Shown here: positions 248 through 19,328 of the stretch, piece by piece
How the letters are laid out: each line of letters opens with the position of its first letter
Numbering within the stretch: the first letter of the stretch is position 1
DNA from: a virus
Length of the DNA: 25,278 nt
Reading direction: 5' to 3' (one strand)
Virus record (IMG/VR): IMGVR_UViG_3300046810_000495
Location: 1 to 25,278 of that record
Position numbers and translations under genes: made by a program
The notes under the pieces: model-generated
Database searches by the model: none
Seen by the model: the letters and a program-made list of their open reading frames with translations, nothing else
Told to the model about the DNA's origin: nothing

Positions 248-290
248 CTTCCTGGCGTACTAGCACCATAAACTTTTGACGGCATAAAGC

Positions 291-304
291 CCGCCCGACG
301 GCGG
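291..304 (-). terminator. GC-rich hairpin with adjacent TATG (leftward)
   Basis: CCGCC (291-295) pairs with GGCGG (300-304) around a CGAC loop. On the leftward strand the stem is followed by 4 bases and then TATG (286-283). This is the same hairpin-then-TATG arrangement seen after several genes in the window. There is no U-tract. It could end a leftward RNA coming from the 305-800 region, supply a late start site for the gene at 107, or both. Confidence 0.4.
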
Positions 305-397
305 ACAAAAATCCCCCATTATTTTTGTTAGTATTAGTAAGAGAGATGCTACGCATCTCTAAGGAAAGGCCCCCTTTCCCCCAAACGTACTAATACT
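304..397. other. Clustered hairpins with a predicted three-way junction
   Basis: A hairpin formed by CAAAAAT (306-312) and ATTTTTG (321-327) is followed at once by a 10-base-pair outer stem, AGTATTAGTA (330-339) with TACTAATACT (388-397). The outer stem encloses two perfect hairpins: AGAGATGC (342-349) with GCATCTCT (353-360), and GGAAAGG (363-369) with CCTTTCC (373-379). This gives a compact three-way junction in single-stranded form. There is no open frame worth calling here. It could be a small RNA, a 5' leader structure or a DNA-level cruciform. The strand is undetermined. Confidence 0.5.
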
Positions 398-821
398 TGC
401 TAATGACTCCGTTCGTTCCGCTTCGCTTCACTCACAACGTCTTACAGCTACATAGAAAAATGAATCAACAATAAAAAAATATTGCTATGGATTTGATGGT
501 CGAAATAGACGTGAAAGAGATTGCTTGGCAATCTCTGCTGAGGTAAGTGAGAACGTTGCTTAGAGCGCCCTTTAGAGGCGCCTGATGTTCTTTAAAAGGA
601 TTTTTAGCCGTTGGCTTGACAAAAGAAACAGAATGGATAGGAAAGTCTATGTAATAGACGAAAGCTGAAAGTGAATGTAAATGTGAGAAGGGGGCGCTGT
701 TGTCATGTTGACAACGTTAACGTTTTGAAAGTCTGCATTCCTTAACCATACTGTGACAATGCAGCTCTCGAACTAGGAGTGTGTTGACAACCGACTTTTA
801 TTACATGCAAAGGATCTTGCA
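398..821. other. Non-coding region upstream of the 822 gene
   Basis: No credible gene is present. The region holds several inverted repeats: AGAGATTGC (516-524) with GCAATCTCT (528-536), resembling the hairpin at 342-360; GCGCC (565-569) with GGCGC (577-581); and GTTGTCA (699-705) with TGACAAC (709-715), which overlaps the palindrome AACGTTAACGTT (713-724). TTGACAAC occurs twice (708-715 and 784-791). TTGACA also occurs at 616-621, with TATGTAAT at 648-655. These could be operator or promoter elements for the rightward gene at 822, but I cannot assign a start site. Confidence 0.4.
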
Positions 822-1520
822 ATGAGCAATCAATTCCGCACCCTGCTGGGTACGCGTCACCGTCACCACCTGGCGATCGAAGAGATCGACACCACTACCG
901 CTGCTCCGGATGGCACTCCGCCTGAACAAGTTGCCACCGAAGACACCACCGTTGTGATGAAAGGTCCGCTGGCGGACGTGTACTCCGACGCCCTGTCCAA
1001 AGTCTACGACAAAGATGTTGCGCCTCCTGGCGATCCAGCAGCAGCTGCTGAACCAGCGTCCGAGACCGGCGCCGCAGTGAACACCACCGACCTGACACCA
1101 GTTGTACCGGAAGAGCAGAACACCGTCGAAGCGGCGATCTTCTCCGAAGTAAGCCAAGTGGTTCTGGAATCCCAAGCCATCGACGCCGCTGTTGCTTCCA
1201 GCCTGGCCGCTGCCATCGCTGACGCCCCACCAGCTGACGGCGCTGCTTACCAGACGCTGTACGCGATCGACGAAACCCAGGTTAAACCAGACGACGTTAA
1301 GGACGTGACCGCGATCCTGGCCGAAGCCGACAAACCGGAAAACGTCACCGTGCTGATCGACAGCGTGGTACCGGACTCCGTGCTGGACGCTGCCGATCCA
1401 GAAGTAACCGGCAGCAAGGAACTGGCCCTGGGCCTGGAATCGATCGTCATCGCCATGGGCGGTAACGTCGTGCACAGCTTCAAGGACTACCTGGCTTCGC
1501 GCCCACGCAAAGCAACGTAA
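822..1520 (+). CDS. Unrecognised acidic, Ala-rich protein; possible internal head protein
   Basis: The product is 232 residues. The start is supported by AAAGGA about 9 bases upstream. The first 17 residues are basic (several Arg and His), followed by Ala18-Ile19-Glu20 and then a long acidic segment rich in Ala, Thr, Val, Asp and Pro, with a short basic C-terminus (RPRKAT). No enzyme motif is visible. phiKZ-type prohead proteases cut after Ser/Ala-x-Glu. A short basic leader ending at A-I-E would fit a processed inner-body or internal head protein, but this is inference from a weak motif. Codon use is strongly C-ending, as in the sheath and tube genes, which suggests high expression. A hairpin follows the stop. 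I do not recognise a family. Confidence 0.85.
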   Translation: MSNQFRTLLGTRHRHHLAIEEIDTTTAAPDGTPPEQVATEDTTVVMKGPLADVYSDALSKVYDKDVAPPGDPAAAAEPASETGAAVNTTDLTPVVPEEQNTVEAAIFSEVSQVVLESQAIDAAVASSLAAAIADAPPADGAAYQTLYAIDETQVKPDDVKDVTAILAEADKPENVTVLIDSVVPDSVLDAADPEVTGSKELALGLESIVIAMGGNVVHSFKDYLASRPRKAT

Positions 1521-1538
1521 GTAACCTTACCGTAACAC

Positions 1539-1571
1539 GCTCCACTGGGGTCACCTGGTGGAGCTGTTATG
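1539..1571 (+). terminator. Terminator-like hairpin followed by TATG
   Basis: GCTCCAC (1539-1545) pairs with GTGGAGC (1558-1564), 18 bases after the stop of the 822 gene. There is no U-tract. Three bases later comes TATG (1568-1571), the core of phiKZ late promoters as I recall it. From there to the next start codon (1626) is 54 bases, a sensible leader. The site may end one transcript and start the next. Confidence 0.55.
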
Positions 1572-1625
1572 CCGTCGGCCGATTCTCATCCTGTGTGAAT
1601 CATGCCCTTACCGAAGGAATAACCC

Positions 1626-2885
1626 ATGTACGTGTCCACAGCACAACAGCCTGAACAGACGCTGTTGGTGCGGAATGTCTTTGAGCAACAATGCCACAGT
1701 GTAATCATTGGCGAAAGCCTGGCTAAAAAGATCGTTCAGTACCAACTCGCCTTTGTCGCCAAGAACGACGAGCACGTGAAGTTCTTCGGTGGCCACCTGA
1801 CCGGTGTACAAATCGTCCGCTTTACCGACGCTGATCGCTTGGTTTGGTTCCAAGAGATTTTGCAGGTTAATGAACACGTATTGCAAGAAGCGCTCTTCGA
1901 GTTGCCTACTGTAAACCGTGATCACCAAGTTGCATCCGACGCGATGAACCTATCGTGCTTCTGGCTGGTACACGTGCTGATCAACGCCGTTAACATTCCA
2001 GACAAACTGAAACATGATGCGCTGGTCTCTGTCATCCTGATTATGCAGTACAAGTTCTTAACCAGCCGCTTGTATCGTCACTTCCACTACCCAGCTGACA
2101 AAGCGGTAGCGGAGGCAACGTATGCTTCACTGTCGATGAAGTTTGACTTGAAGCAATACGGTAGCTGGGGCGCTTACCTGCACGGTCGTGCAGAAGACAT
2201 CCTGGACACGAAGACGAACCGCTTCCAGCAGTTTACCAACATGGGCGATGACCGCGAGATCGAGAAGATCATCAACGACATCCAAACCCGTTTGCGTAAA
2301 ACGCTGCGCTTGATTGCAGGCGTGCATTACAACGTCAACGCATCAGGCCGCCGTCATACTGCGATGTCCCAGACCGTGGAACATGACGGCAAGGAAATCC
2401 TAAAAGATCGCGTGAAGAGTCTGGCAAACTACACACGCTACGTGCAATCGATCATCCCCGACAAGACTTCGTTCATGCGAGAAGAACTGTTGGTGGTGAT
2501 TGAAAAGATGATCCACACCATGCCGCCCCATCTGTTCCGCAATACCCTGGGTTGGTTGTCGGAGAATTTCCAAGGCAACCGCTCCACGGAGATGCAGGAC
2601 TTGGTGAAAGAAATCATGGTGCACTGTTTCGACTATCTGTCACACAACACTGATTCGATCCAGAACGGTCACGACCTGCCGTCACTGTTGGTTCGTTTAC
2701 GTGGTGTGTATACAGCAGCTCGGTCTACCGACCCTGTGCTGATGCAGATCCGAGAACGCACCGAAGCCCTGGTTAAGGAAGCCACCGGCACACGCAACAT
2801 CAGCCTGCTTCCGCCTATTCGCACCGGCGTTCTTCTCTATATTACGTTGAGGGCGCTCTCGAAGCGCTTCTACGCTGACAGCTAG
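1626..2885 (+). CDS. Unrecognised protein of 419 residues
   Basis: The ATG at 1626 is preceded by GAAGGAATAACCC, a good ribosome binding site. The protein is mostly alpha-helical in character, with no signal peptide. It has a hydrophobic helix-like stretch around residues 105-140 (FWLVHVLINAV, then VSVILIMQYKFL), too polar at its edges to call a membrane anchor. No nucleotide-binding or catalytic motif stands out. It lies between the hairpin-TATG unit at 1539-1571 and the small gene at 2916. Its 3' end carries an internal CTATATTAC element (2837-2845) directed at the next gene. Position next to terL suggests a phiKZ-family conserved protein, but I cannot name it. Confidence 0.85.
   Translation: MYVSTAQQPEQTLLVRNVFEQQCHSVIIGESLAKKIVQYQLAFVAKNDEHVKFFGGHLTGVQIVRFTDADRLVWFQEILQVNEHVLQEALFELPTVNRDHQVASDAMNLSCFWLVHVLINAVNIPDKLKHDALVSVILIMQYKFLTSRLYRHFHYPADKAVAEATYASLSMKFDLKQYGSWGAYLHGRAEDILDTKTNRFQQFTNMGDDREIEKIINDIQTRLRKTLRLIAGVHYNVNASGRRHTAMSQTVEHDGKEILKDRVKSLANYTRYVQSIIPDKTSFMREELLVVIEKMIHTMPPHLFRNTLGWLSENFQGNRSTEMQDLVKEIMVHCFDYLSHNTDSIQNGHDLPSLLVRLRGVYTAARSTDPVLMQIRERTEALVKEATGTRNISLLPPIRTGVLLYITLRALSKRFYADS
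2837..2845 (+). promoter_or_regulatory. Candidate early promoter element inside the upstream gene
   Basis: CTATATTAC lies within the last codons of the 419-residue gene, 70 bases before the start of the 133-residue gene and oriented toward it. It is identical to the two elements at 163-171 and 239-247. It would give the downstream gene its own early transcription. Activity is inferred. Confidence 0.45.
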
Positions 2886-2915
2886 AGAATCTACCGATAA
2901 GGGAATGGCGACATT

Positions 2916-3317
2916 ATGAGAATTGTAAAAACACTCTTTGGTGTCGTGCTTCTACTCTTTGAACGTCTGCGTGGTTCGAAGACCGTGTCTGAAATAAAGC
3001 GACCTGACAATTCGTTAGGTAGCCTAAAAGGCTTTGCGGTGCGTGGTTATGAGTTAGCCATTTATTGTCAACGAAAAGAATACCACGTGAAGTACGACCG
3101 GTGGTACATCCCTGATCGCATCGAAGTGACCTACAACGTGTTCTCCGTGGTCTCTAATGATGCGCCCAAGGCGCTTCGAAAGGCATGTGAACTCGATGTT
3201 GATTTACCAGCGCTCGTACACAACTGGAACTTTGACAATGAGATCCGGCGCGCGCAAGTGCATGCTTATCTTGATCTGCTTGAAAAGCGGATGACAAAAA
3301 TCGATGCGACAGCATAG
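2916..3317 (+). CDS. Unrecognised small protein (133 residues)
   Basis: The ATG at 2916 follows AAGGGA at about 9 to 12 bases, a slightly long spacing. The N-terminus (KTLFGVVLLLFERL) is hydrophobic and amphipathic and may associate with membrane or a partner. The remainder is mixed, with a Tyr-rich segment (YELAIYCQRKEYHVKYDRWYIP, roughly residues 48-69) and a helical C-terminus. No family is recognised. It is the last gene of the rightward block. Its stop codon abuts a strong hairpin, and a CTATATTAC element lies 70 bases upstream, so it may be expressed separately from the 419-residue gene, perhaps early. Confidence 0.75.
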   Translation: MRIVKTLFGVVLLLFERLRGSKTVSEIKRPDNSLGSLKGFAVRGYELAIYCQRKEYHVKYDRWYIPDRIEVTYNVFSVVSNDAPKALRKACELDVDLPALVHNWNFDNEIRRAQVHAYLDLLEKRMTKIDATA

Positions 3318-3351
3318 CTCCCGCTACCCTTTCGGGTAGCGGGAGTGTATG
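3313..3351. terminator. Bidirectional terminator hairpin flanked by TATG on both exits
   Basis: CTCCCGCTACCC (3318-3329) pairs perfectly with GGGTAGCGGGAG (3334-3345) around a TTTC loop, between two convergent genes. Neither side has a U-tract. Instead TATG follows two bases after the stem rightward (3348-3351), and TATG read leftward follows one base after the stem (3316-3313). The symmetry argues that TATG belongs to the termination or processing signal, since no gene in either direction would be started from it sensibly. Confidence 0.75.
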
Positions 3352-3354
3352 CCG

Positions 3355-5556
3355 TTATCCGAAGAAACTGCGTTGGTTATAGCCCATCATGTTCCGGTAG
3401 TAATCCTGATCATTCATGGCCTCGCCGTTACGTTGGATGCTGTTCAGCTGGACACGTTTCTTCTTCTTATCCTTGATATCGCCGATCAATTGGTCGATGT
3501 TATTCAAAGTACCTTGTGCGTACACAAGGCCCTGAGCAAGGCTTCGAATCTGATGCTCCAGCTTATCCGACAGATAGGTATCTGACGTTTCTTCCAGTTG
3601 GACACTCATGGCTTGGATCTGTTCTTGCAGCTCTTGTTGCTTCTGCAAAGCCAGATACTCGTCGTACGTCATTTGACGTTCGTCGCCGATGTTGGTCATG
3701 ATGTTGGTCAGACCGTAGTGCGACATGTTCTTGCCATTGGTCAGGAACCAATGCGCCATCAGCCAAGCAATGACCATGTCATCGTGCTTACCAGCTGCGT
3801 GGTCAACCCGATCGTTCTTCTTCACCAGACCAGCAATCTGCGCCACCAACTTCTTGTCGTAGACTTTATCACCACCACGCTTCGCAGCGTTCTGTAATGT
3901 ATTGCCGTACAACTCGCTACGCGCGAAACGACCCGAGCCAGAGGTATTGAAACCAAAGGCCGACTTGTTCAGTGTGTAGACGGATTCATCACGACGCGCC
4001 AAAGGCATACGCAATTGTTCGAAGCGAGCAGGATTGACGTCCTTGTCCTGCACAACCAAGTTGAACATCCGTTTGTATGGATCTTCTCCCATGGTAGGCA
4101 AAGCCATGTTCAAGATATCGACAATGGTCTCACCGGACGATTTGCGTTCGATGATCAGCGTGACATTCTTGTTCTCGACCAAGTATACCGCCAGCCAGTT
4201 GGAAAACATTAGGATGTTGGTTTCGTTAACAGACGCTGCAGCTGCAACATCGAGCGTATCTGCATCTACCCACACCATCGCGATATCATCGTTACCGTTA
4301 GCAGAGGAGCTGTCGATACTCAGGATCAGCTTGTTGTTCGCCAAGTAGTTCGCCAAGTTCCGCTCAGCAACGTTCCACTTGATGATGTACTTCTGATGCG
4401 GGAAGTATTGGTCATACACCGCATCGTTCTGTGAAGCCACAATCCGTTTTAGCAACGCTGGGGTGAGGGGATGCGATTCGGTACCAGAGGTCCAGACGTT
4501 GAAGTAATCTCGGTCAGCTGCATCGCCTTCGGATTTCGAGTCTTGCATCTTTTCCCACAACCAAGCGTCGGATTTACCGAGCTGACGGTGACTCATCACG
4601 ATGGCCATCTGGAAGTTACCTTTGCCGTTCTTACGAACGTAGGCTTCCAGCTCTTCGAAGTTCTTCTGATCGTAGACGGTCTCAGACCAAGCCATGGCAT
4701 TGACCATGTATTTCTCGTAGACGAACTTGCCTTCGTTGGTGTCCAGCTTGCCGGCAGTGGTCGTCATGATGTTGCAGTACGGCGAGCCAGCAGTCTTCGC
4801 ACGATCGCGCACCGCGTTACCTGCGGACAACAGAGCAGGAATCGAGATGTGTGCGTTGGTGCAGAACGGACCTTCGTCAATCCAGTTGATTGCGGAGCCG
4901 AAACCACGACCGACGTTGTTGGCGTCCTTCTCGGAAGAACGCGGTACGAAGGTCTTCAGTTTGTTGTCCAGCAGATTGACAGTGACTTCTTCGGTGTTGT
5001 TTGCATCGGTGCGTTGGTTACGCAAGTCGATGTAAATCGGCAAGGTATCGAACACCTTCTTCATGATGTCCACCGATTCCTTGCGCAGCTTCTCGTCCTT
5101 GGTGTACAAGTTCATCAGCGTGCCCTCGCAGCGAACTGTCATCAAGTAAACGAACAACTCAAAGATGGTGTAGGACTTACCTGTCTGACGTGGCTGGATC
5201 AACGTCATCGAAATGTGATTGAAGAAGCACCACCACATGGCAATGTTGCCGCGGTTTGCTTCAACAGGAATGGCTTTGTCACCGGCCTGGCCTGGAATGC
5301 GCGCTACCTCACGGAAGAAGTACCATGGGTTGACTTTGCATTCTGCCACGATCATGTCCATCTGATCACGCGTCAGGAATGGATCATGCGGGTCGATGTA
5401 CTTTAAGTGCGGGTTAATGAGAGCCAAATGGAACATGTGGTTGCTAATCCCCATGCTCTTATAAACGCCCGCCATCTTGACCCACGACTCGTTCTTCGTA
5501 GTTAAGTGTGGTTCGGCACTGGGGTATCTATCCCAGTCTTCTTCGAAAAGAATCAT
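3355..5556 (-). CDS. terL: Terminase large subunit (phiKZ gp25-like)
   Basis: This 733-residue DNA-packaging motor cuts concatemers and pumps DNA into the prohead at the portal vertex. The ATPase domain shows the terminase Walker A QPRQTGKS (121-128), Walker B INWIDE (223-228, catalytic E228) and the coupling motif TTTAG (265-269). The RNase H-like nuclease domain has its three acidic sites: D415 in ILSIDSS, E470 in LIIERKS, and D592/D593 in KHDDMV. A helical, Gln/Glu-rich C-terminus follows (about 640-690), probably for partner binding. AAGGATAGCAA precedes the ATG. A leftward TATG lies 18 bases upstream of the start codon, just past the hairpin at 5590-5614, and is a plausible late start site. 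No small terminase is recognisable nearby. Confidence 0.96.
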   Translation of the reverse strand: MILFEEDWDRYPSAEPHLTTKNESWVKMAGVYKSMGISNHMFHLALINPHLKYIDPHDPFLTRDQMDMIVAECKVNPWYFFREVARIPGQAGDKAIPVEANRGNIAMWWCFFNHISMTLIQPRQTGKSYTIFELFVYLMTVRCEGTLMNLYTKDEKLRKESVDIMKKVFDTLPIYIDLRNQRTDANNTEEVTVNLLDNKLKTFVPRSSEKDANNVGRGFGSAINWIDEGPFCTNAHISIPALLSAGNAVRDRAKTAGSPYCNIMTTTAGKLDTNEGKFVYEKYMVNAMAWSETVYDQKNFEELEAYVRKNGKGNFQMAIVMSHRQLGKSDAWLWEKMQDSKSEGDAADRDYFNVWTSGTESHPLTPALLKRIVASQNDAVYDQYFPHQKYIIKWNVAERNLANYLANNKLILSIDSSSANGNDDIAMVWVDADTLDVAAAASVNETNILMFSNWLAVYLVENKNVTLIIERKSSGETIVDILNMALPTMGEDPYKRMFNLVVQDKDVNPARFEQLRMPLARRDESVYTLNKSAFGFNTSGSGRFARSELYGNTLQNAAKRGGDKVYDKKLVAQIAGLVKKNDRVDHAAGKHDDMVIAWLMAHWFLTNGKNMSHYGLTNIMTNIGDERQMTYDEYLALQKQQELQEQIQAMSVQLEETSDTYLSDKLEHQIRSLAQGLVYAQGTLNNIDQLIGDIKDKKKKRVQLNSIQRNGEAMNDQDYYRNMMGYNQRSFFG

Positions 5557-5574
5557 TTGCTATCCTTGAAAACG

Positions 5575-5614
5575 TCATAACCCAATCAACTCCTCGCTGC
5601 TTGGCAGCGAGGAG
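5575..5614 (-). terminator. Terminator hairpin with TATG, upstream of terL
   Basis: CTCCTCGCTGC (5590-5600) pairs perfectly with GCAGCGAGGAG (5604-5614) around a TTG loop, just past the stop of the 563-residue gene. Reading leftward there is no U-tract, but TATG occurs 11 bases after the stem (5578-5575), and the terL ATG follows 18 bases later. The hairpin probably ends the upstream message, and TATG may start the terL message. Confidence 0.65.
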
Positions 5615-5623
5615 GAGAAGGTA

Positions 5624-7315
5624 TTACTGATGGTAAACAGGCATTGCGCTGATTGCCAGTTGGATGTCCGTATCAACGGTCCGGATGAAGAACTTGATGA
5701 ACACCGTGCTGCTATTTGCCAACGTGTGCGTCAGCGAGAGCTGCTCATTCCACTTGTCGATCGGGTATGCCGTTTCCCAGCCTGGCATGCAAATCGAGAA
5801 GTGGGTTGGATCAGGAGCACGAACTTCACGCCCTTGGTCTGACAACGGCTTGACAAGACGGTAGAGGCGTTCCAGCCACGCTTCTTGCGTACCTTCGGCA
5901 CACGACACATCCAGCTTCATCAGGTTCTGGTCGATGATGGTTGCTTTGGCGTAGTTACCTTCGCCGAACAACACTTCCTGATGCGGGATGAAGCCGATGG
6001 CCCAGTTGCTAGTGCGAGCCGTACCTGGTTGACGTAGAACGATGTCGATCGTTTGCACATGGTTCAGCGCCAGGCCACTTGGGTTGACGTCTTTCAGATT
6101 GATCGACACGCCCAACGCTTGTTTGTAACCGTAGCCGATCGGATTGAACGGCGCAGCGTTTTCGTTGAACTTCACGAATGGGGTGACCAATTGTGCCATG
6201 CGGCGTTCCATGTCGTACAGCCACCATTCCAGACGGTAGCCATTGACATCATCCACCCATACTGGGAAGCCGTACAACTTAGGCGAGTACATGCCTTCGT
6301 AGTTGGTCGTCAGAGCGCTGTAGAGGCGCGTGATGGAACCGGCCGGGGTAGTTTGAACACCGAGTACCACATCGTCCGCTGACAGCTTGTAATCGAGCAC
6401 CAGGTCGAATACTTGACCAGCGTACGTCGACACGAAATTGTCCAGACCACGCAGGCTGAACTTGGTGTTGTTCACCGGATAGCGCATCTTGCTGCCGTCG
6501 CTGTAATGCACCACGCCGATGAGCGCCAGGCCGTTGAGTGGGATATTGAGCGCGAAGCGCAGCTGAGTCGGATCGTTCGGCGAAATGAACGGCGATTCAA
6601 GGCTGATGTTGGTGATGTACTTGGTCGATGCATCGGCGTTAGGCACGAACTGAGTATTCTCTACCAACAGCTCGCACTTGGACACCTGATGGCCGGAATC
6701 CGAATACGTGATAACCACCAGCTTTTCGCCATTGGGTACGTTTTCGGTGGTGTAGCACATCGGGAAGGCTTTCACCGTCCGGTTGTCGCCAGTGGTTTCT
6801 GCCAACACCAGCGGGATCGAAGTGCCTACCAATTCATTCGACTGGTTGTACAGTTGACTGATTGGCTTGGAGTCACCTTCGATATTGGTGCCACGGAAGA
6901 TGGTGAAGCGCTCTGCTTCTGCGGTGTAGGTGTGCAACCGCGCATCCATCGTCAGCGTGTGCGGCAACACGTTCGTGTTCAGGTAAACCCGGAACGTATC
7001 CGCAATACCGCCAGGTCCGACGCCGAGGATCAGGTCCGTGTTGGTGAACTGTTGATCCTGTTTGAGTGGGTCGATCGGGTTCATGCGCGAGACCAGCGTC
7101 GTCGCATCCACCGCTACCACCTCGTAGAAGCTCGAGGATGCGCGATCGACGACCCAGTCGTGGAGCTTCGGCACGTAACGCTTGGTGCCAACACCGGTTG
7201 GACCAGTGAAGATTTCGTTCAGCTCCCAGATGGTCCACCGGGCATCTGGTTCGTACACTGGGGTCACGCCGTCTGCACCGGCAATGCCCATGGTGCTAAT
7301 TACGGTATAAGTCAT
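5624..7315 (-). CDS. Probable virion structural protein (phiKZ gp26 position)
   Basis: The product is 563 residues with a beta-rich composition (many Thr, Val, Asn and Gly, few long helices) and no signal peptide or enzyme motif, as expected of a tail or baseplate-type component. GTGGAGAAACC precedes the ATG. It starts 12 bases after the stop of the 857-residue gene, so the two are co-transcribed. The gene order terL, this gene, the 857-residue gene, the 321-residue gene, then sheath and tube on the other strand matches phiKZ gp25 to gp30, and the structural role rests mainly on that synteny. The exact location in the particle cannot be told from the sequence. Confidence 0.7.
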   Translation of the reverse strand: MTYTVISTMGIAGADGVTPVYEPDARWTIWELNEIFTGPTGVGTKRYVPKLHDWVVDRASSSFYEVVAVDATTLVSRMNPIDPLKQDQQFTNTDLILGVGPGGIADTFRVYLNTNVLPHTLTMDARLHTYTAEAERFTIFRGTNIEGDSKPISQLYNQSNELVGTSIPLVLAETTGDNRTVKAFPMCYTTENVPNGEKLVVITYSDSGHQVSKCELLVENTQFVPNADASTKYITNISLESPFISPNDPTQLRFALNIPLNGLALIGVVHYSDGSKMRYPVNNTKFSLRGLDNFVSTYAGQVFDLVLDYKLSADDVVLGVQTTPAGSITRLYSALTTNYEGMYSPKLYGFPVWVDDVNGYRLEWWLYDMERRMAQLVTPFVKFNENAAPFNPIGYGYKQALGVSINLKDVNPSGLALNHVQTIDIVLRQPGTARTSNWAIGFIPHQEVLFGEGNYAKATIIDQNLMKLDVSCAEGTQEAWLERLYRLVKPLSDQGREVRAPDPTHFSICMPGWETAYPIDKWNEQLSLTHTLANSSTVFIKFFIRTVDTDIQLAISAMPVYHQ

Positions 7316-7327
7316 GGTTTCTCCACT

Positions 7328-9901: not shown

Positions 9902-9913
9902 GGTCGTCCTTAG

Positions 9914-9969
9914 GAAAAAAGAAATAAAAAAAGACACCACCCAGACCGATCTCTCGATCTAGATGGTGT
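9914..9969 (-). terminator. Classical intrinsic terminator between the 321- and 857-residue genes
   Basis: ACACCA (9934-9939) pairs with TGGTGT (9964-9969). Inside, AGA (9943-9945) pairs with TCT (9958-9960) and CGA (9947-9949) with TCG (9954-9956). Read leftward, the stem is followed by a 20-base T-rich tract (9933-9914) with two runs of six or more T. Unlike the other hairpins in this window it has a U-tract and no TATG. Confidence 0.8.
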
Positions 9970-9981
9970 AAAGGCAGGGAC

Positions 9982-10947
9982 TTAGGAAATCGCTTTCTCG
10001 ACCAGCTTACCGGCAGTATCCGGTGCCATGGACTTGATTACCTGGGCCAGTTTACCCAGACCATCTTGATATTGGCGCCGCTCGGCAATCTTCGACAAAC
10101 CTACCTTCTTCATGGCCATGTTGGTATGCGCTTCCAGCAGCAGGGAGATCCAGGTTGGCGGATGCTCCAGCGCAACAGCGCACAGCTCAACGTGATTGTC
10201 GCCGCCCCAGGTGGCGCCCATCAGCGAGACCAGCACACCATGGTTCAGATTGTCCAGACGAACGTTGTTCAGGAACACCTTGACTTTCGCGCAGAACTCT
10301 TCGATCGAGCCGATCGCTTTGGTCACATCGTAGATGCGTGCCACATCAGCCACGTTGGCTTTCAGGGCATTGGCAATCGCTGACAGGTAACGCGCTTCGT
10401 TCGCCTTGTCAAACTCGACACCTTCCACATGGTTCGAGGTGTAGAAGATCGCTGCGATGATCATGGTCTCGATGCGTGCTTTCGGATCGAGGTTGTAGCG
10501 GAAGCCGATGGTTTCAGCAACCCAGCTCGAGAACACCGCCATGGCCACTGGCGTGATGCTGCGGAACGCGTTGGGGCCATTGGTCAACCAAAGCGAGGTC
10601 AGTGCCGAGCGGTACAGCATGTTCTTGTACATGCTCGAGTTCGTGATCTTGAACTGGCCAGAGATGGCATCCATACGACCCGAGGCACGGACATCCATTG
10701 CCAAGAATGGCTGCACACGGTTTTCGTTCGAGTGGCGGATATCGGTGGAATGGATCTTGCTGATGTACAGCGGATGCTTGAATGCGGTGACTGCGGAGCA
10801 CGCGCCGGTGCTGCTTTCCACATAGAGAACGCTGTCAGCTTGTGGCAGCCAATCGCGCAGCCGTGCTTCCTGGATGGCGTCAATTACTTTCCCCATCTGG
10901 TAGTTATTGCAGGCCGTGGTATCGTAGGCCGTATTGTAGACAGTCAT
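9982..10947 (-). CDS. Probable virion structural protein (phiKZ gp28 position)
   Basis: The product is 321 residues and largely alpha-helical. The start is supported by GAAGGACCACGACA before the ATG. It has no signal peptide, no transmembrane segment and no catalytic motif. The C-terminal third (about 240-321) is helical and ends in a Lys-rich segment. It is the first gene of the leftward structural block, divergent from the tail sheath, and is followed by the intrinsic terminator at 9914-9969. Position matches phiKZ gp28, a gene I recall as encoding a virion protein. Function beyond that is not known to me. Confidence 0.7.
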   Translation of the reverse strand: MTVYNTAYDTTACNNYQMGKVIDAIQEARLRDWLPQADSVLYVESSTGACSAVTAFKHPLYISKIHSTDIRHSNENRVQPFLAMDVRASGRMDAISGQFKITNSSMYKNMLYRSALTSLWLTNGPNAFRSITPVAMAVFSSWVAETIGFRYNLDPKARIETMIIAAIFYTSNHVEGVEFDKANEARYLSAIANALKANVADVARIYDVTKAIGSIEEFCAKVKVFLNNVRLDNLNHGVLVSLMGATWGGDNHVELCAVALEHPPTWISLLLEAHTNMAMKKVGLSKIAERRQYQDGLGKLAQVIKSMAPDTAGKLVEKAIS

Positions 10948-11180
10948 TGTCGTGGTCCTTCTAACGAAATCAGTATGTGAAAAATTATTCGGTACCTCTT
11001 AGTGTCCAGACATTGTATGTTAAACCAATGTCGAGCACGCTCAGGTTGTTTTAACATTTACAGGTAGGAGTTAGAGCCGATCCTGCCAGTATTTTTTTAA
11101 GATTACTATGATGCTGGGCATCGACTTCGAAACATTACCGAAACCATACCATTCATTATCAGTGACAGGAACCGGACATA
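10948..11180. promoter_or_regulatory. Divergent promoter region between the 321-residue gene and the sheath gene
   Basis: This 233-base, AT-rich spacer separates two divergent virion gene units. It contains the inverted repeat GACATTG (11009-11015) and CAATGTC (11026-11032), with TATG (11016-11019) inside the loop. A second rightward TATG at 11107-11110, after a T-rich stretch, is 71 bases before the sheath ATG. Either could be a late start site. A 35-codon frame beginning near 11107 overlaps the sheath start in another frame and is not called. Confidence 0.5.
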
Positions 11181-13262
11181 ATGAAAATCCCCAACGCAAC
11201 ACCTATGTCGTATAACACCGGCATGCATGATGTGTCTGGTCGGAAGCTGCGCCCGCAACCTCTTGATCAACCATCGCACTTGCCGAAAGTCTTTGGCTTC
11301 TTCCAGAAAGGCAAAGTAGGCAAATCACACCTGGTCGTTGGCGACAGCCGTGCCATGATCTATGGCCTCAGCAGCTTCGACCCGCTGAAGCAGTACTTCA
11401 ACCACGCAACCGCTTTCGCCAACATCTTCAACGCCGCAGGCAATGCGGTGATGATGGAACGTGTGCTGCCGGAAGATGCGAAGCCGCCAGCGGCTGTCCG
11501 TCTGTCGCTGGACCTGCTGCCTACCCTGGTGCAGGACTACGAGCGCAACATCGATGGCAGCTATCGCGTCGACAACGCTGGCGTCAAAGTTCCGACAGCA
11601 ACCAAGATCCCGGGCTACCTGGGCAAGTGGGTTGCTGAACCGATCGAAATCGACGAAGGCGTTCGTGCCTTCGGCCAAGGTTCCATCATGGATGGTGACC
11701 AGCTGGATGGTGTAACCACTACCCAGTCGACCCGCTATCCGATCATGGACCTGATGGTCTCGTCGGAAGGCAGCTGGGGTAACGATTTCGGCGTGAGCAT
11801 CTGGGCGCTGACCTCGATGTCGGACACCGCGGTGGACGAACGCCTGATCACCGACCAGAAAGTTTACCCGTTCCAGATCGCTGTGAAGGCCCGTCAAGAC
11901 GGTCTGACCACGCCGTCGATCGTGACGACCCTGGGCGGCGGCCAGTCGATCCCATTCGTGCTGAAGCCGAAGACCATCGACCGCAACACCGAAGCACAAA
12001 TGTATCTGGGCGACGTCTTCGTCGACGCTTACCAGGACATCAAGTCCAAAGGCATCTCGCCAACCTACGGCGCCTTCGACCGGCTGAAGATCTACGACAG
12101 CAATGTCAAGACCGCGCTCGATCTGCTGTACGCTGCTGAATTCCCGCACGCTGACAACTTCAGCGACTTCGACGGTTCGGACGACGAGTCCTACCGTTTC
12201 AACCCGTTCTCGGCGGTGTCGTCGAACAACGTGCCTTACCATTCGTTCCAGCTGGTCACCGGTTCGCCGAACAGCCTGCGCATGGTAGCAACTTCGACGG
12301 TCTTCGCTCGCGACGGCTTCGACGGCACCATGAACGACGAAGTATTCGATCTGCTGGTTCGCGCTAAGCTGCAAGAATACGGCGACAAGAACAGCTATCG
12401 CCAGGACTCGGTCAACCACCCGGAAAACATCATCTGGGACTCCGGCCACTCGCTGGCGACGAAGAAGGCTATGGCCAACTTCATCGCGGTGCGCAAAGGT
12501 ACCTACGTGCAAGCATCGACGCACGTTGTCGGCGGTCCTCCGCTGAGCGACGACCAAGAGCGTTCCGTGGCGATCTCGCTGATGACGGCTTTCCAGAACT
12601 TCCCTGAATCGGAAACCTACGCCACCCCAACGGTGCGGGCTTCGATCATTGCGGGTTCCGGTCATCTGTTGGCCAGCAAGTACACCGAAGAAGTGCCGGC
12701 GTCGATCGACCGTGCTGCGAAGTGGTCTGCCTACATGGGCGCCACCAACGGCAAGTGGATCTCGCGTCTGAAACCGGACGTGTCACCGAACAATCAGGTG
12801 TCGCTGCTGAGCGATCTGAACGTGGTCTTCCGTCCAGCTACCGCCCGTTACAAGGACTGGGATGCTGGCATGGTGTGGCCTGAGCCGTACACGATGGACA
12901 CCCAGTACTTCCCGCAACACCAAACGGTGTACCCTGACGACACGTCGGTGCTGAACTCGGCCATCACGGCCTTCGGCTGCACCACGCTGATCGCCGTGGG
13001 CGAGAAGGCTCACCGTGACAACACGGGCCGTAGCGATCTGACCAAAGATCAGATGGTGGCTTCGATCAACAGTAACATCCTGGAGCAGGTTGACGGGAAG
13101 TACGACGATCGTTTCATCATCATCCCCGAAACCACTTACACTGCGGACGATGATCTCCGCGGCTACAGCTGGACGACGGTGATCAAGGTCGGCGCTCCAA
13201 TGATGCAGACGGTTCAAACCCTGACCATCGAAACCTACCGTAAAGAGGACCTCCAGCAATGA
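11181..13262 (+). CDS. Contractile tail sheath protein (phiKZ gp29-like)
   Basis: The product is 693 residues, the size expected for phiKZ-type sheaths. Polymerised around the tail tube, it contracts to drive the tube through the host envelope. The N-terminus is the extended arm type (MKIPNATPMSYNTGMHDVSG). The middle is a large variable domain, and the C-terminus ends in a beta-rich segment (WTTVIKVGAPMMQTVQTLTIETYR) typical of the strand-exchange region of sheath proteins. AGGAACCGGACATA precedes the ATG, and an in-frame TGA lies just upstream. Codon use is strongly biased to G- and C-ending codons, as expected for a very abundant protein. Its stop overlaps the start of the tube gene (ATGA). 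Assignment rests on length, pairing with the tube gene, and synteny. Confidence 0.9.
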   Translation: MKIPNATPMSYNTGMHDVSGRKLRPQPLDQPSHLPKVFGFFQKGKVGKSHLVVGDSRAMIYGLSSFDPLKQYFNHATAFANIFNAAGNAVMMERVLPEDAKPPAAVRLSLDLLPTLVQDYERNIDGSYRVDNAGVKVPTATKIPGYLGKWVAEPIEIDEGVRAFGQGSIMDGDQLDGVTTTQSTRYPIMDLMVSSEGSWGNDFGVSIWALTSMSDTAVDERLITDQKVYPFQIAVKARQDGLTTPSIVTTLGGGQSIPFVLKPKTIDRNTEAQMYLGDVFVDAYQDIKSKGISPTYGAFDRLKIYDSNVKTALDLLYAAEFPHADNFSDFDGSDDESYRFNPFSAVSSNNVPYHSFQLVTGSPNSLRMVATSTVFARDGFDGTMNDEVFDLLVRAKLQEYGDKNSYRQDSVNHPENIIWDSGHSLATKKAMANFIAVRKGTYVQASTHVVGGPPLSDDQERSVAISLMTAFQNFPESETYATPTVRASIIAGSGHLLASKYTEEVPASIDRAAKWSAYMGATNGKWISRLKPDVSPNNQVSLLSDLNVVFRPATARYKDWDAGMVWPEPYTMDTQYFPQHQTVYPDDTSVLNSAITAFGCTTLIAVGEKAHRDNTGRSDLTKDQMVASINSNILEQVDGKYDDRFIIIPETTYTADDDLRGYSWTTVIKVGAPMMQTVQTLTIETYRKEDLQQ

Positions 13263-14128
13263 CACGTCCACAAGGAACCATTCTCCAACAAGGTTCGGCC
13301 TACGGCCTGGGCGCTAACTCGCCAATGGTGAGTCTGAGCACCAATGGTCAAATGGGCTGGTCCCCGGAGCACGCGTCTTTCACCAGCAATCAGGCTTATG
13401 TGCGCAAGCACCTGATCCCGATTCTGATCGAGGCGCCGAAGCTGTTCCAATACCTGCCGAACCCGGCAGACTGGAACGCCGCGCTCCGCGCTCTGATCGA
13501 GACGCAGTGGCTGCAAGTCGACGGCCTGAATGCCGGCCTGACAGCCACGTTTACCGAAAACGCGTTCGGTGGTTCGGGTCTGAAACAACAGGACCTGACC
13601 AACATCGTGGAAGCGGAATCGCGTCCGAAGCACACCTACCTGGAACGCTACGGCCGTCCTATCCAACGTTTCATCCGTGCCTGGATGACCTACGCTGGTA
13701 TGGACCCGTACACCAAGTTCCCGATGGTTTCGAATCTGGCAAGCGCCGCCAATCTGGCGGACCTGCTGGCTGACCAAACCACGGCTACCGTGCTGTACAT
13801 CGAACCCGACGCAATGGGCCGCAAGGTCCAGCAATCGTGGCTGGTGTTCAACATGTTCCCGGAAAGCACCGGCGATGTGATCGGTTCAGCTGACAAAACG
13901 CAAGACATGCAGACGACCAACATCGACCTGCAATTCACGGGCCTGCATCAATACGGTCCGGGTGTCGATGCGCTGGCGCAGCAGATCCTGAACACCATCT
14001 CACTGGTTGGCGCCAGCCCGTACATGAAGCAAGCTGCGATCCAAGAGATCTCGGCGGATGTACGTGCTGCGCAGAACGGCTTTGCGGCTGGCGTGTCGTC
14101 CCTGGCACAACGTCAAGTGCAGGTGTAA
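13259..14128 (+). CDS. Tail tube protein (phiKZ gp30-like)
   Basis: The product is 289 residues. It should form the inner tube of the contractile tail through which DNA and virion proteins pass. The start ATG overlaps the sheath stop by four bases (ATGA), which indicates translational coupling. A GAGGACCT element 8 to 15 bases upstream serves as ribosome binding site. Segments such as the Phe/Tyr-rich MFPESTGDVIGSADKT (about 200-215) and the following NIDLQFTGLHQYG are consistent with a tube beta-barrel, and the C-terminus is helical and Ala/Gln-rich. The gene immediately follows the sheath in phiKZ and in myoviruses generally. A strong hairpin follows the stop. Confidence 0.88.
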   Translation: MTRPQGTILQQGSAYGLGANSPMVSLSTNGQMGWSPEHASFTSNQAYVRKHLIPILIEAPKLFQYLPNPADWNAALRALIETQWLQVDGLNAGLTATFTENAFGGSGLKQQDLTNIVEAESRPKHTYLERYGRPIQRFIRAWMTYAGMDPYTKFPMVSNLASAANLADLLADQTTATVLYIEPDAMGRKVQQSWLVFNMFPESTGDVIGSADKTQDMQTTNIDLQFTGLHQYGPGVDALAQQILNTISLVGASPYMKQAAIQEISADVRAAQNGFAAGVSSLAQRQVQV

Positions 14129-14142
14129 CAGTCCTGTCATAC

Positions 14143-14180
14143 CCCTCCTCTCCCGCTGTACGGGGAGAGGAGGGTTTATG
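14143..14180 (+). terminator. Terminator hairpin after the tail tube gene, followed by TATG
   Basis: CCCTCCTCTCCC (14143-14154) pairs perfectly with GGGAGAGGAGGG (14163-14174), 14 bases after the tube stop codon. Two bases later comes TATG (14177-14180). The run after the stem is only TTT, so it is not a classical U-tract terminator. This matches the hairpin-TATG pattern at 1539, 3318, 14314 and 16070. Confidence 0.75.
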
Positions 14181-14307
14181 ATGTCATTAGGAATGCTTTA
14201 CAGCCCCATAGGGCGTTTTAAATATGGTAGAGGTAGTTTCTAGTGAACTGTATTCTGCAACGTCTTGTAGCGCGTTCTAGATGAAAACAAACAAAAAAGA
14301 TAGAGGT

Positions 14308-14343
14308 CATACATCCCTCCCCAACCCGAAGGTCGAGGAGGGA
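14308..14343 (-). terminator. Leftward terminator-like hairpin with TATG
   Basis: TCCCTCC (14314-14320) pairs with GGAGGGA (14337-14343); inside, ACC and GGT can add short pairing. Read leftward, TATG (14311-14308) follows two bases after the stem, and a T-rich run lies about 15 bases beyond. By analogy with the other units it should end leftward RNA coming from the genes at 15914-14858, leaving a roughly 540-base untranslated tail. Confidence 0.5.
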
Positions 14344-14372
14344 GTATTTACCAAGTTAAACAACAACTTCGA

Positions 14373-14667
14373 ACTTGCAGGGACACGACCGGAGAATCGC
14401 TCGAATTGAATCATCAACGGCTCCGGTATGGATACAAGATCAGGCTTTGGGTACCTAGCCCGTACCTGCCCAAGGGCTTTTTCTCTAACGAGAGGGAAGG
14501 AGGATACGGACCCCTTATTACCCGAAGTGGAGCCTTAGACCACGTGCTACAACCGGCAGTGTTTCGGGCAATTTTTTGTCACTGATCCTAGGCATCCCTA
14601 GATCTCAGCAACTTGACGCCTGCTGCTTACGCTTGCGCGAGGTTAGCTTAGTTACTTGCAGGGACAC
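14373..14667. repeat. Pair of 14-base direct repeats ACTTGCAGGGACAC
   Basis: Exact copies lie at 14373-14386 and 14654-14667, 281 bases apart. The similarity fades into AGGGACACGACCGGAGAA and AGGGACACAGCTCAGGAA beyond the exact match. An 11-base repeat, AACCCGAAGGT, lies 5' of the first copy (14323) but 3' of the second (14716). The reading frames of the copies do not agree, so the repetition looks RNA- or DNA-level rather than peptide-level. Confidence 0.6.
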
Positions 14668-14681
14668 AGCTCAGGAACAAC

Positions 14682-14807
14682 ATGCCGCTACGCCAGGTGT
14701 CTTTCGACATCGTCGAACCCGAAGGTTACATGTTGTCTGAACAATGGATGCTTTTACAAAGGGAGCGTCAAACTCCTTATCGTCGAACCAGCAACCGCAC
14801 CGCCTGA
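14682..14807 (+). CDS. Doubtful small ORF (41 residues)
   Basis: An ATG at 14682 follows AGGAACAAC, a reasonable ribosome binding site, and opens a 41-codon frame with a plausible amphipathic peptide (MPLRQVSFDIVEPEGY...). It lies inside the structured, repeat-containing region and is convergent with the gene ending at 14858. It uses more A/T-ending and rare-type codons than the surrounding phage genes. No family is recognised. It may be a real small gene expressed past the tube terminator or a chance frame. Confidence 0.25.
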   Translation: MPLRQVSFDIVEPEGYMLSEQWMLLQRERQTPYRRTSNRTA

Positions 14808-14857
14808 CATCGGGCGTTTACCATCAATCAGGTCGGTGCAGCGCCGTCCAGGCCGAA

Positions 14858-15373
14858 TTACTTGGTGCCGAACAGGTCCATGGCCGCAGCCTTTTGGCGT
14901 TTCGCGACTTTGTTCAGTTCGCCGACGGAGGCGTCGGTGCCGGTGACGGACAGTTTGGCGGTCATGGTGCCGTAGACGGTTTTCTTCGCAACAGGCGGTT
15001 CGCCGGCGCGCTGGATGCCAGCGTTGACTTCTTTCGATTTGGTCCAGTCGACGGTGAAGGTATCCTTGCCGACCATGTGCAGGACGGCTTTGGCTTCGGT
15101 GATACCTTTCTGCTTGGCGGCAGCGCCGGAGGCCACGGTGCCGACGGCGTCGAAGGCAGCTGCGAACAGGTGGGTGTTGTGCTCTTGCAGGGCTTTCAGG
15201 GTCGCCAGCGGGATGGAGGCAGGCAGCAGTTTTTCATAGGCGTCGGCGTCGATGGTGATGTCACCGGATTTCGCGTCGATGGTCATGTGCTTCTGCAGCG
15301 CTTCCGACAGCTCGGCGGTGGTAGCGTGCAGGGTTGGCAGTTCTTTGACTTGGGCGGTAGCGGTAGTGCTCAT
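14858..15373 (-). CDS. Unrecognised small protein (171 residues), probable virion component
   Basis: The start is taken at the ATG at 15373 (MSTTATAQVKELPTLHATTA), because AAAGGAAGACAAGC sits immediately upstream. A longer frame to 15535 would overlap the stop of the preceding gene and has no such site. The protein is soluble and Ala/Lys/Thr-rich, with a helical N-terminal half and a beta-prone segment (KKTVYGTMTAKLSVTGTDASVGE) before a basic, helical C-terminus. C- and G-ending codons dominate, as in the abundant virion genes. It lies downstream of the 154-residue gene in the leftward series from the prohead protease. No family is recognised. A structural role is inferred from composition and neighbourhood only. 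Confidence 0.75.
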   Translation of the reverse strand: MSTTATAQVKELPTLHATTAELSEALQKHMTIDAKSGDITIDADAYEKLLPASIPLATLKALQEHNTHLFAAAFDAVGTVASGAAAKQKGITEAKAVLHMVGKDTFTVDWTKSKEVNAGIQRAGEPPVAKKTVYGTMTAKLSVTGTDASVGELNKVAKRQKAAAMDLFGTK

Positions 15374-15449
15374 GCTTGTCTTCCTTTGGTTATTAAAGAT
15401 AATTGCTCTGGACGAGCAGGTGGTACTACGAGGTGCTGATGAATCAGCT

Positions 15450-15914
15450 TTAGCCGTAACGCGAATTCGACTTCGGAGGTGGCGAACGGCTAAATGCGGT
15501 GTTGCCGCGATACGGCGCCGTTGGCGGCGTAGCACGGACTTCAGTTACAGGTTCTGCAACTGGTTGATTGATGCGAGTTTTCTTCAGCGCCGGCGAGGAA
15601 AGCAGACGACCGGAGATCTCGGTTTGTTTCTTGTCCTTGGCGCGCAGGATGAGATTGCGGCCGGCCAGTACGAGGTACGAACCCTGGTGCTTGAAGAACA
15701 CCAGATTGGCTTCGTGGATCGCGTCGTTGTTGGGATCGATCAGAACCTTGTTGTCCGGGATGTCAGAATCGAGAGGGGTGATCTCGTTCAGCTTGACCGT
15801 AATCATGGGTCCTGAAGCGGCGGTGGTCAAAACCGACTGCAGGTTGTGCTCAATGCCTTTGAACATGAGCGACGTGTTTTTCCACTGACTCAAATCTTGT
15901 TTATTAGCGGGCAT
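15450..15914 (-). CDS. Unrecognised protein (154 residues); weak ParB/sulfiredoxin-fold resemblance
   Basis: The start is supported by CGAGGATTTGA before the ATG. Residues about 40-115 read as a short alpha/beta domain: a strand (MITVKLNEI), DSDIPDNKVLIDPNNDAIHE, a second strand pair (ANLVFFKHQGSYLVLAGRNLI), then a helix with basic residues. The Gly-Arg after the second strand sits where ParB-like domains carry their G-x-x-R motif, but the family signature is incomplete, so this is only a suggestion. The C-terminal 40 residues are a Pro/Ser/Arg-rich tail, probably disordered. A hairpin-TATG unit (16095-16063) lies about 150 bases upstream and may supply its late promoter. Confidence 0.7.
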   Translation of the reverse strand: MPANKQDLSQWKNTSLMFKGIEHNLQSVLTTAASGPMITVKLNEITPLDSDIPDNKVLIDPNNDAIHEANLVFFKHQGSYLVLAGRNLILRAKDKKQTEISGRLLSSPALKKTRINQPVAEPVTEVRATPPTAPYRGNTAFSRSPPPKSNSRYG

Positions 15915-16062
15915 TCAAATCCTCGAGAAGGTTAAGTAGTGAGCGTGGTGCTCTATAGCAGGGTATCTCCGGCTATTTTTCTACCGAATTGTTAGGGATG
16001 GGCAATTCCTCATTACCACTCAGTAAAGTGATATAGGCGTATTTTAGTCTAGAACCATACGT
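15915..16062. other. Leader region of the 154-residue gene
   Basis: This non-coding spacer lies between the hairpin at 16070-16095 and the ATG at 15914. It contains a second leftward TATG (16059-16056) and, at 16028-16036, GTGATATAG. The latter is one mismatch from the complement of the CTATATTAC element and is in the orientation of the downstream gene. No open frame is supported. Confidence 0.35.
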
Positions 16063-16095
16063 CATACAGCCCTCCAGCCCGGTTGGACTGGAGGG
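16063..16095 (-). terminator. Terminator hairpin after the prohead protease gene, followed by TATG
   Basis: CCCTCCAG (16070-16077) pairs with CTGGAGGG (16088-16095), six bases past the protease stop codon. Read leftward, TATG (16066-16063) follows three bases after the stem, and a second TATG follows at 16059-16056. No U-tract is present. It probably ends the RNAP-protease message, and TATG may begin the message for the 154-residue gene. Confidence 0.7.
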
Positions 16096-16101
16096 ACTGC
16101 G

Positions 16102-16896
16102 TTACCAGCCGAGGGACGGCGGACGTTGTGCAGCTTGCGATGGGAGATTCCAACCCATGGCATTGAACAGGGCTTGGCCTGAAATGATGCATGACTCTTG
16201 CGTGACGCCGACTTGTTGGCTGTCAACGTAGAGAGCCTTCTCCAAGTTAGCGCGAGTCATTTCCATTTCGAAGCCTTCCAGCGCTGGCGAGAAGTACTTC
16301 TCCGCCGTTGCAATACCAGGCTCGTTGACGTAGTCAAACGTCACCACTTCACGCAGTGCGCGTTCTTCGATGCCGAAACGAATCCGGTTATCGGTGAACG
16401 AACGAATGGAGAAGCAAACGTTCTCGTGTGGGTTCTGGAGTTGTTTCTCCAGTACAGCGCCCATCGGACCGTTAGGAGCCACCAGCGACATGATGACCAC
16501 GATTGGTTTGCCATCTTTGTCTTTTACGCTATCATGGTCCAGCCACAACTTCATGTGGTGGCAGCACACATTCTCTTCGTAGATCGACAGATTGCGACGA
16601 GCGAACTCTTGCTCACGGACCTTTTGTTCACGCGGGTCCATAGCACGTGGAGGTGGTTTCGGATGACCGTATTCACCACGCAATGCAGCGCGACCGATGC
16701 GACGCTGCAGCGAGCTGGACTGGTCTTCGAACAGATGGCGCGATGGTGCCAGCGGATAGAAAGCGCCGCCGGAGTTAAACACGTTCAACGCGCCAACGAT
16801 CATCGGGTAATAACCCTCAGGCGTTCGCTTCAGCTCACCCACCTTATTCGTACCAACCAACGAGTGGCAGGCATACATCACTGAATTGGGAGACAT
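16102..16896 (-). CDS. Prohead maturation protease (phiKZ gp175 / T4 gp21 type)
   Basis: This 264-residue serine protease of the herpesvirus-assemblin fold should cleave scaffold, capsid and inner-body proteins during head maturation. Three conserved elements are visible in the expected order: the His box GEYGHP (74-79, catalytic H78), the Ser box VCFSIRSF (160-167, catalytic S163), and VVTFDYVNEPGIATA (184-198), which matches the D-x-V-x-x-P-G element carrying the third residue, probably D188. The C-terminal 60 residues, rich in Gln, Ala and Pro, may be removed by self-cleavage. AAGGAAATAGC before the ATG overlaps the end of the upstream gene, whose stop lies one base away. Its position before two virion genes and the beta subunit gene mirrors phiKZ gp175-178. 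Confidence 0.88.
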   Translation of the reverse strand: MSPNSVMYACHSLVGTNKVGELKRTPEGYYPMIVGALNVFNSGGAFYPLAPSRHLFEDQSSSLQRRIGRAALRGEYGHPKPPPRAMDPREQKVREQEFARRNLSIYEENVCCHHMKLWLDHDSVKDKDGKPIVVIMSLVAPNGPMGAVLEKQLQNPHENVCFSIRSFTDNRIRFGIEERALREVVTFDYVNEPGIATAEKYFSPALEGFEMEMTRANLEKALYVDSQQVGVTQESCIISGQALFNAMGWNLPSQAAQRPPSLGW

Positions 16897-19304: not shown

Positions 19305-19328
19305 GCAGAGGAGCCTAGGCTCCTCTGC
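19305..19328 (-). terminator. 24-base perfect palindrome after the beta subunit gene
   Basis: GCAGAGGAGC (19305-19314) pairs with GCTCCTCTGC (19319-19328) around CTAG; the whole 24 bases are self-complementary. It lies three bases past the stop codon of the beta-subunit gene. Read leftward, it is followed by a pyrimidine-rich stretch rather than a clean U-tract, and no TATG is adjacent. It probably attenuates or ends the RNAP message before the 65-residue gene. Confidence 0.65.

Follow-up and report, generated by a model that had tools for sequence, protein, structure and literature searches.

Does the tetranucleotide TATG that adjoins hairpin after hairpin in a piece of viral DNA mark the start of a transcript or its end? 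The question is raised by a 25,278-base stretch (positions 1 to 25,278 of IMG/VR record IMGVR_UViG_3300046810_000495, hereafter the window), part of the genome of a phiKZ-type jumbo phage as indicated by phiKZ-family PHROG matches for terminase, tail sheath, head protease and beta-type RNA polymerase subunits. The original prediction listed eight hairpin exits with TATG close to the stem and read them as a combined signal at which the phage polymerase ends, or is cleaved, and starts anew, or at which the RNA is processed. Comparison of related phages showed that hairpin and TATG form one composite element, that this element lies at the 3' ends of transcription units and is conserved across the family, and that a second element, a hairpin followed by a run of T, obeys a strand rule. 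The first element is probably a terminator for the late, non-virion RNA polymerase (nvRNAP) and the second one for the early, virion RNA polymerase (vRNAP), with some sites serving both. We infer the assignment of each polymerase to its element, as well as the release step.

The terminase of the window is 71-75% identical to those of three environmental contigs (G001, G002 and G003) and at most 47% identical to that of any named phage (Burkholderia phage FLC9), and a megablast search of the window against phage records gave zero matches. We used the nearly complete sequences of G002, G003, G012, phiKZ, Noxifer, PhiPA3 and FLC9 and about 200 kb each of RAY, EL, 201phi2-1, AR9, LucasX, OBP, G007, SPN3US, FLC6 and Psa21. 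A simple scan for stems located the hairpins, and a purpose-written codon-usage caller the genes. Background at convergent gene ends was counted in an interval shifted 23 nt downstream, and the folding energies of the window hairpins were compared with those of shuffled sequence (z-scores).

Counting TATG after hairpins in related genomes against a control, the check proposed in the original prediction, placed it clearly above background in 14 phages, here called TATG-type. In these, TATG was found at 215 of 337 convergent gene-end hairpin exits versus 17 of 337 in the shifted interval, with p values per genome of 2e-6 to 2e-36, so that the earlier claim of an excess over chance holds. The proportions included 21/25 in G002, 23/30 in G003, 25/33 in FLC9, 21/27 in LucasX, 17/20 in RAY, 15/20 in phiKZ and 17/28 in PhiPA3. 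Among strong hairpins (score of at least 28), TATG exits numbered 38/82 in G002 and 38/116 in G003, with TATG reading into the hairpin at only 2 and 3, and hairpins inside genes had TATG at 23 of 598 exits. An open count of k-mers also put TATG or an overlapping word at the top of the minor-strand list in most of the phages.

Alignment on TATG revealed a longer motif that had been overlooked before, TATG-C/T-C/T-G-T-C/T, whose last five positions are looser than the first four. The full element is thus a hairpin, a gap that is mostly 0-3 nt, and TATGYYGTY, the YYGTY part being weak in some phages (OBP, RAY). A hairpin (-12 kcal/mol or lower) was detected upstream of most intergenic TATGYYGT words (28/34 in G002, 29/33 in G003, 28/30 in G012, 33/38 in phiKZ, 47/51 in Noxifer and 48/51 in PhiPA3), and downstream of only 0-3 per genome in the same six. 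Hairpin and TATG are kept at orthologous gene ends in the clade of the window, FLC9, LucasX and Noxifer, while the stem sequences diverge.

The hosts of the phages that carry the element are Pseudomonas, Erwinia, Burkholderia and Xanthomonas. EL was weakly positive for the TATG form (8/34 convergent exits), SPN3US (1/25), AR9 (2/33) and Escherichia coli (0/30) were negative, and it was lacking in the 50 kb of phiR1-37 that were searched. Since phages from four host genera share the element, which E. coli, AR9 and phiR1-37 do not have, a signal of the host RNA polymerase was ruled out.

The position of the sites relative to genes indicates which end of a transcript they mark. TATG exits accompany tandem or convergent gene ends, with next to none in divergent gaps, and thus resemble terminators, not promoters. 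A stable GC-rich RNA hairpin lies just 3' of the gene ends, as in intrinsic terminators, and the TATG-only class has no U-tract directly after the stem. In tandem hairpins TATG stands at the front exit alone in 153 cases and at the back exit alone in 52. The nnGT extension is present in 141 of 366 hairpin TATGs versus 12 of 135 TATGs that precede minor-strand genes in divergent gaps, the necessary location of late promoters (p=1e-11), and only 6 of 92 promoter-position TATGs have an upstream hairpin. TATG was named in the original prediction as the core of phiKZ late promoters, in agreement with the literature: in promoter P119L it is required by nvRNAP, as shown by mutation in vitro (PMC4666361). 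P119L (GCTATATTGCTATGTAGACAG) has neither a hairpin nor YYGT. The hairpin sites share this TATG core with late promoters and not their location upstream of late genes or in divergent gaps.

The second element, which had also escaped notice, follows the strand of the early promoters. Early-promoter cores, found de novo in intergenic DNA, summed to 142 on the major strand versus 3 on the minor strand over the tested genomes, a total to which the window and G001 contribute one each. In phiKZ the strands held 26 versus 0, which agrees with the 28 early promoters of this phage (cited in PMC13282480). Where both exits of a convergent hairpin could be scored (141 hairpins), a T-run was present at 66 early-strand exits and 6 other exits (McNemar p=2e-16), and TATG at 77 and 97, respectively. 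The T-run usually begins several to about 16 nt from the stem (median 13 nt in dual sites), and many early-strand exits carry TATG and T-run in series, for example CGTATGCCGTCTTTCTTTTTTG. An early promoter was contained in 60 of 185 units ended by a T-run versus 20 of 146 ended by TATG only (p=9e-5). On the plus strand of phiKZ, 13 of 29 TATG-only sites lie downstream of annotated virion genes versus 1 of 23 T-run sites (p=0.001), and in this phage both the PhuZ gene and the gp71-75 nvRNAP/helicase unit end in a T-run site. The T-run is almost confined to the early-promoter strand, SPN3US excepted. That it is a piece of the early promoter of the next gene was ruled out, as T-runs occur at convergent early-strand exits that have no downstream gene on the same strand. 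Additionally, a repeated leader, ATAACYAACAACA, was observed upstream of many early-strand genes in G002 and G003 (L032-L057), and AACTAACAA has 16 copies in G003 and zero on the opposite strand.

The sites of the window are the following; gaps are counted from stem to TATG.

289..306, minus strand: hairpin with a 7 bp stem, the 291-304 stem extended by two pairs (-14.4 kcal/mol, z -2.4)
278..286, minus strand: TATGCCGTC element, gap 2, candidate left-facing terminator with no minus-strand gene called behind it
1539..1564, plus strand: hairpin 3' of gene 822-1520 (-28.2 kcal/mol, z -4.6); hairpin and TATG are kept at ortholog ends
1568..1576, plus strand: TATGCCGTC element, gap 3, conserved in G001-G003
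3318..3345, no single strand: bidirectional hairpin between the convergent gene 2916-3317 (plus) and terminase gene 3355-5556 (minus) (-33 kcal/mol, z -7.5)
3348..3356, plus strand: TATGCCGTT element at an exit of hairpin 3318-3345, gap 2, without T-run
3308..3316, minus strand: TATGCTGTC element at an exit of hairpin 3318-3345, gap 1
3296..3300, minus strand: T5 run 17 nt beyond the stem on the early-strand exit, weak, within the opposite gene
5590..5614, minus strand: hairpin 3' of structural gene 5624-7315 (minus) (z -6.2)
5571..5579, minus strand: TATGACGTT, gap 10, the weakest case; G001 has it at a comparable gap, and in G003 it is lost
9934..9969, minus strand: hairpin and T-run (CTTTTTTTATTTCTTTTTT) without TATG, candidate early-type terminator on the early strand
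14143..14174, no single strand: hairpin 3' of gene 13259-14128 (plus), TATG at both exits (z -6.7)
14177..14185, plus strand: TATGATGTC element at an exit of hairpin 14143-14174, gap 2
14133..14141, minus strand: TATGACAGG at the leftward exit of hairpin 14143-14174, gap 1
14314..14343, minus strand: hairpin predicted to terminate leftward (minus-strand) transcription (z -5.1)
14303..14311, minus strand: TATGACCTC element at an exit of hairpin 14314-14343, gap 2
14293..14298, minus strand: T6 run 15 nt beyond the stem, making this a candidate dual (TATG and T-run) terminator on the early strand
16070..16095, minus strand: hairpin 3' of head protease gene 16102-16896 (minus) (z -4.7)
16058..16066, minus strand: TATGACGTA element at an exit of hairpin 16070-16095, gap 3
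16028..16035, minus strand: predicted early-promoter core TATATCAC of the next minus-strand unit, conserved in G002, G003 and FLC9

Shuffled sequence folds less stably than the window hairpins, whose z-scores range from -2.4 to -7.5. All eight exits listed before do carry TATG, including both exits of the convergent hairpin 3318-3345 with gaps of 2 and 1, and seven of the eight read TATGNYGTN. The list itself needed small corrections: the gap at 5590-5614 is 10 and not 11, the first stem reaches 289-306 so that its gap is 2 and not 4, and the leftward exit of 14143-14174 adds one more site. The statement that the exits have no good U-tract was also slightly too broad, as two of them have a T-run farther out (T6 at 14293-14298 and T5 at 3296-3300). 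Of the eight exits, a scan for U-tract terminators listed the rightward one of 14143 alone, and its match count in the window was no higher than in shuffles. The core at 16028-16035 lies on the minus strand, which makes minus the early strand of the window, and the T-run exits at 9934-9969 and 14314-14343 both point along it. The absence of TATG from the hairpin at 9934-9969 was described correctly, as was its absence from the palindrome at 19305-19328. The latter is a perfect hairpin inside an operon, directly 3' of an RNA polymerase subunit gene, with neither TATG nor T-run; a hairpin stands at the matching site of G003, and an attenuator or mRNA stabiliser is a possible role. The leftward terminator at 278-306, with no minus-strand gene called, suggests that a small minus-strand gene or RNA lies there. 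Two long stretches, 305-820 and 14344-14857, contain neither convincing genes nor an Rfam or tRNA match; that the element is a known RNA family or a tRNA was likewise rejected, as no match was found.

Three other explanations of the hairpin-TATG sites were considered. The re-initiation proposed in the original prediction, in which nvRNAP ends at the hairpin and starts again at the adjoining TATG with G as +1, has in its favour that TATG with this G is the core of phiKZ late promoters (PMC4666361, PMC7618050) and that the next unit could start at tandem sites. We nevertheless consider it very improbable, since the sites are abundant at convergent ends, where they face the opposite gene, and shun divergent gaps, promoter-position TATGs rarely carry YYGT or an upstream hairpin, and no hairpin accompanies P119L, a late promoter proven in vitro. 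The combined signal is strongly supported at RNA 3' ends, its link to the late phage polymerase is supported indirectly, and its re-initiation part is not supported. Less credible still is that TATG is no more than the outer portion of an extended palindrome (CATA...TATG), with selection acting on stem length instead of sequence: CATA and TATG do pair in the folds of convergent sites and 70 of 151 pairs have TATG at both exits, but selection for stem length would not yield the specific word TATGYYGT, and the tandem sites (front-only 153, back-only 52, with CAT or ATA in the 5' flank of only 39 of the 153) rejected such an artefact as the sole cause. In phiKZ, convergent sites such as 25214-25234 and 167840-167860 have the flanks CATAA and ATTATG, which allows CATA-TATG pairing with a recurrent one-base bulge. 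A general pyrimidine-rich 5' arm was also tried and gave only a weak signal (0.58 vs 0.48).

RNA processing, in which transcripts run past and a host or phage RNase cuts at or after hairpin-UAUG, akin to histone mRNA processing, would share the anatomy and the placement, and the motif does adjoin the stem with small gap variation; release and cleavage are not separable by sequence. It appears unlikely, because the TATG core is that of the nvRNAP promoter (PMC4666361), the element is common to phages of unrelated hosts, and the early-strand rule of the T-run suits polymerase specificity better than a nuclease that acts on all transcripts.

Several observations weigh against termination by two polymerases at two words. 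Gene-end hairpins of EL and SPN3US are mostly followed by TTATT(T)/CTTTTATTT (EL L154-L163, SPN3US L214-L223), and TATG is still enriched at their presumed late promoters, which may reflect a change of stop word during evolution; a strict tie between the words used for promoters and for terminators is accordingly not supported, in small numbers. SPN3US does not show the strand rule and has the T-rich form on both strands. Many gene-end hairpins have neither TATG nor T-run. TATG also stands at the back (antisense) exit of 115 of 518 tandem hairpins (22%) in the 14 phages, far above background, perhaps as a stop for late antisense transcription. Pairing of TATG with the CATA across from it is possible at convergent sites, which makes the two exits partly dependent on each other. 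Finally, gene calls and hairpin thresholds were our own, except in the phiKZ virion-gene test, which used the gene table of the record, and the counts include homologous sites of related phages that are not independent samples.

In the termination mechanism that we propose, the stop for nvRNAP would be a GC-rich RNA hairpin with TATGYYGTY, in place of a U-tract, usually 0-3 nt after it, and vRNAP, whose promoters lie on one strand, would stop at a hairpin followed by a T-run. Sites that need to stop both polymerases would carry TATG and then the T-run in series. TATGYY^G may be a pause site resembling the bacterial elemental pause (G-10, Y-1, G+1); the transcript would then end at the second Y, about 6-9 nt beyond the stem, and the hairpin would strip the paused complex. 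Bacterial intrinsic terminators release RNA at a distance from the stem close to this. That distance and the match of Y followed by G speak for a complex paused by sequence on which the hairpin then acts, a model that we put forward tentatively. The promoter register (G as +1) is disfavoured, because the 3' end would then lie about 4 nt from the stem, seemingly too close. It is likewise conceivable, although we would not yet rely on it, that nvRNAP reads TATG both as a start, where no hairpin precedes it, and as a stop, where a nascent hairpin and YYGT flank it, and that vRNAP obeys a different signal, which would make a two-polymerase stop code in series.

These data offer a concrete candidate stop signal for each of two phage-encoded multisubunit polymerases. 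Predictors based on U-tracts miss most hairpin-TATG terminators, and the element shows why. It should help to delimit transcription units, and to sort them into early and late classes, in uncultured jumbo phages when only the sequence is at hand, and hairpin-TATG elements may serve as terminators specific for phage polymerases. We found no description of such a stop element in the open-access literature, where termination by the two multisubunit polymerases of nucleus-forming phages is essentially unstudied: terminators are unmentioned in PMC7618050 and PMC7909554, and for AR9 there is only the remark that nvRNAP termination must differ (PMC7598289).

Among known systems, bacterial intrinsic (Rho-independent) terminators likewise have a GC-rich hairpin just past the stop codon and are often bidirectional at convergent genes, whereas the TATG class has the defined word TATGYYGTY instead of a stem-adjacent U-tract. 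The vRNAP of Thermus phage P23-45 is also a phage-encoded polymerase related to cellular ones with an unusual termination motif of its own (26 nt); it belongs to a different phage group, the accessible part of that report neither gives the sequence of the motif nor mentions a hairpin, and its terminators were mapped by long-read RNA sequencing, whereas hairpin-TATG was recognised from sequence (PMC10770324). The hairpin-stabilised elemental pause of bacteria (G-10, Y-1, G+1) shares an upstream hairpin and, where we propose the transcript to end, a Y followed by G, a likeness in layout only (PMC12288461). The phiKZ late promoter (TATG, G as +1) has the same TATG core, recognised by nvRNAP (PMC4666361); unlike the hairpin-TATG element, these promoters lie upstream of genes, have no hairpin and mostly lack YYGT.

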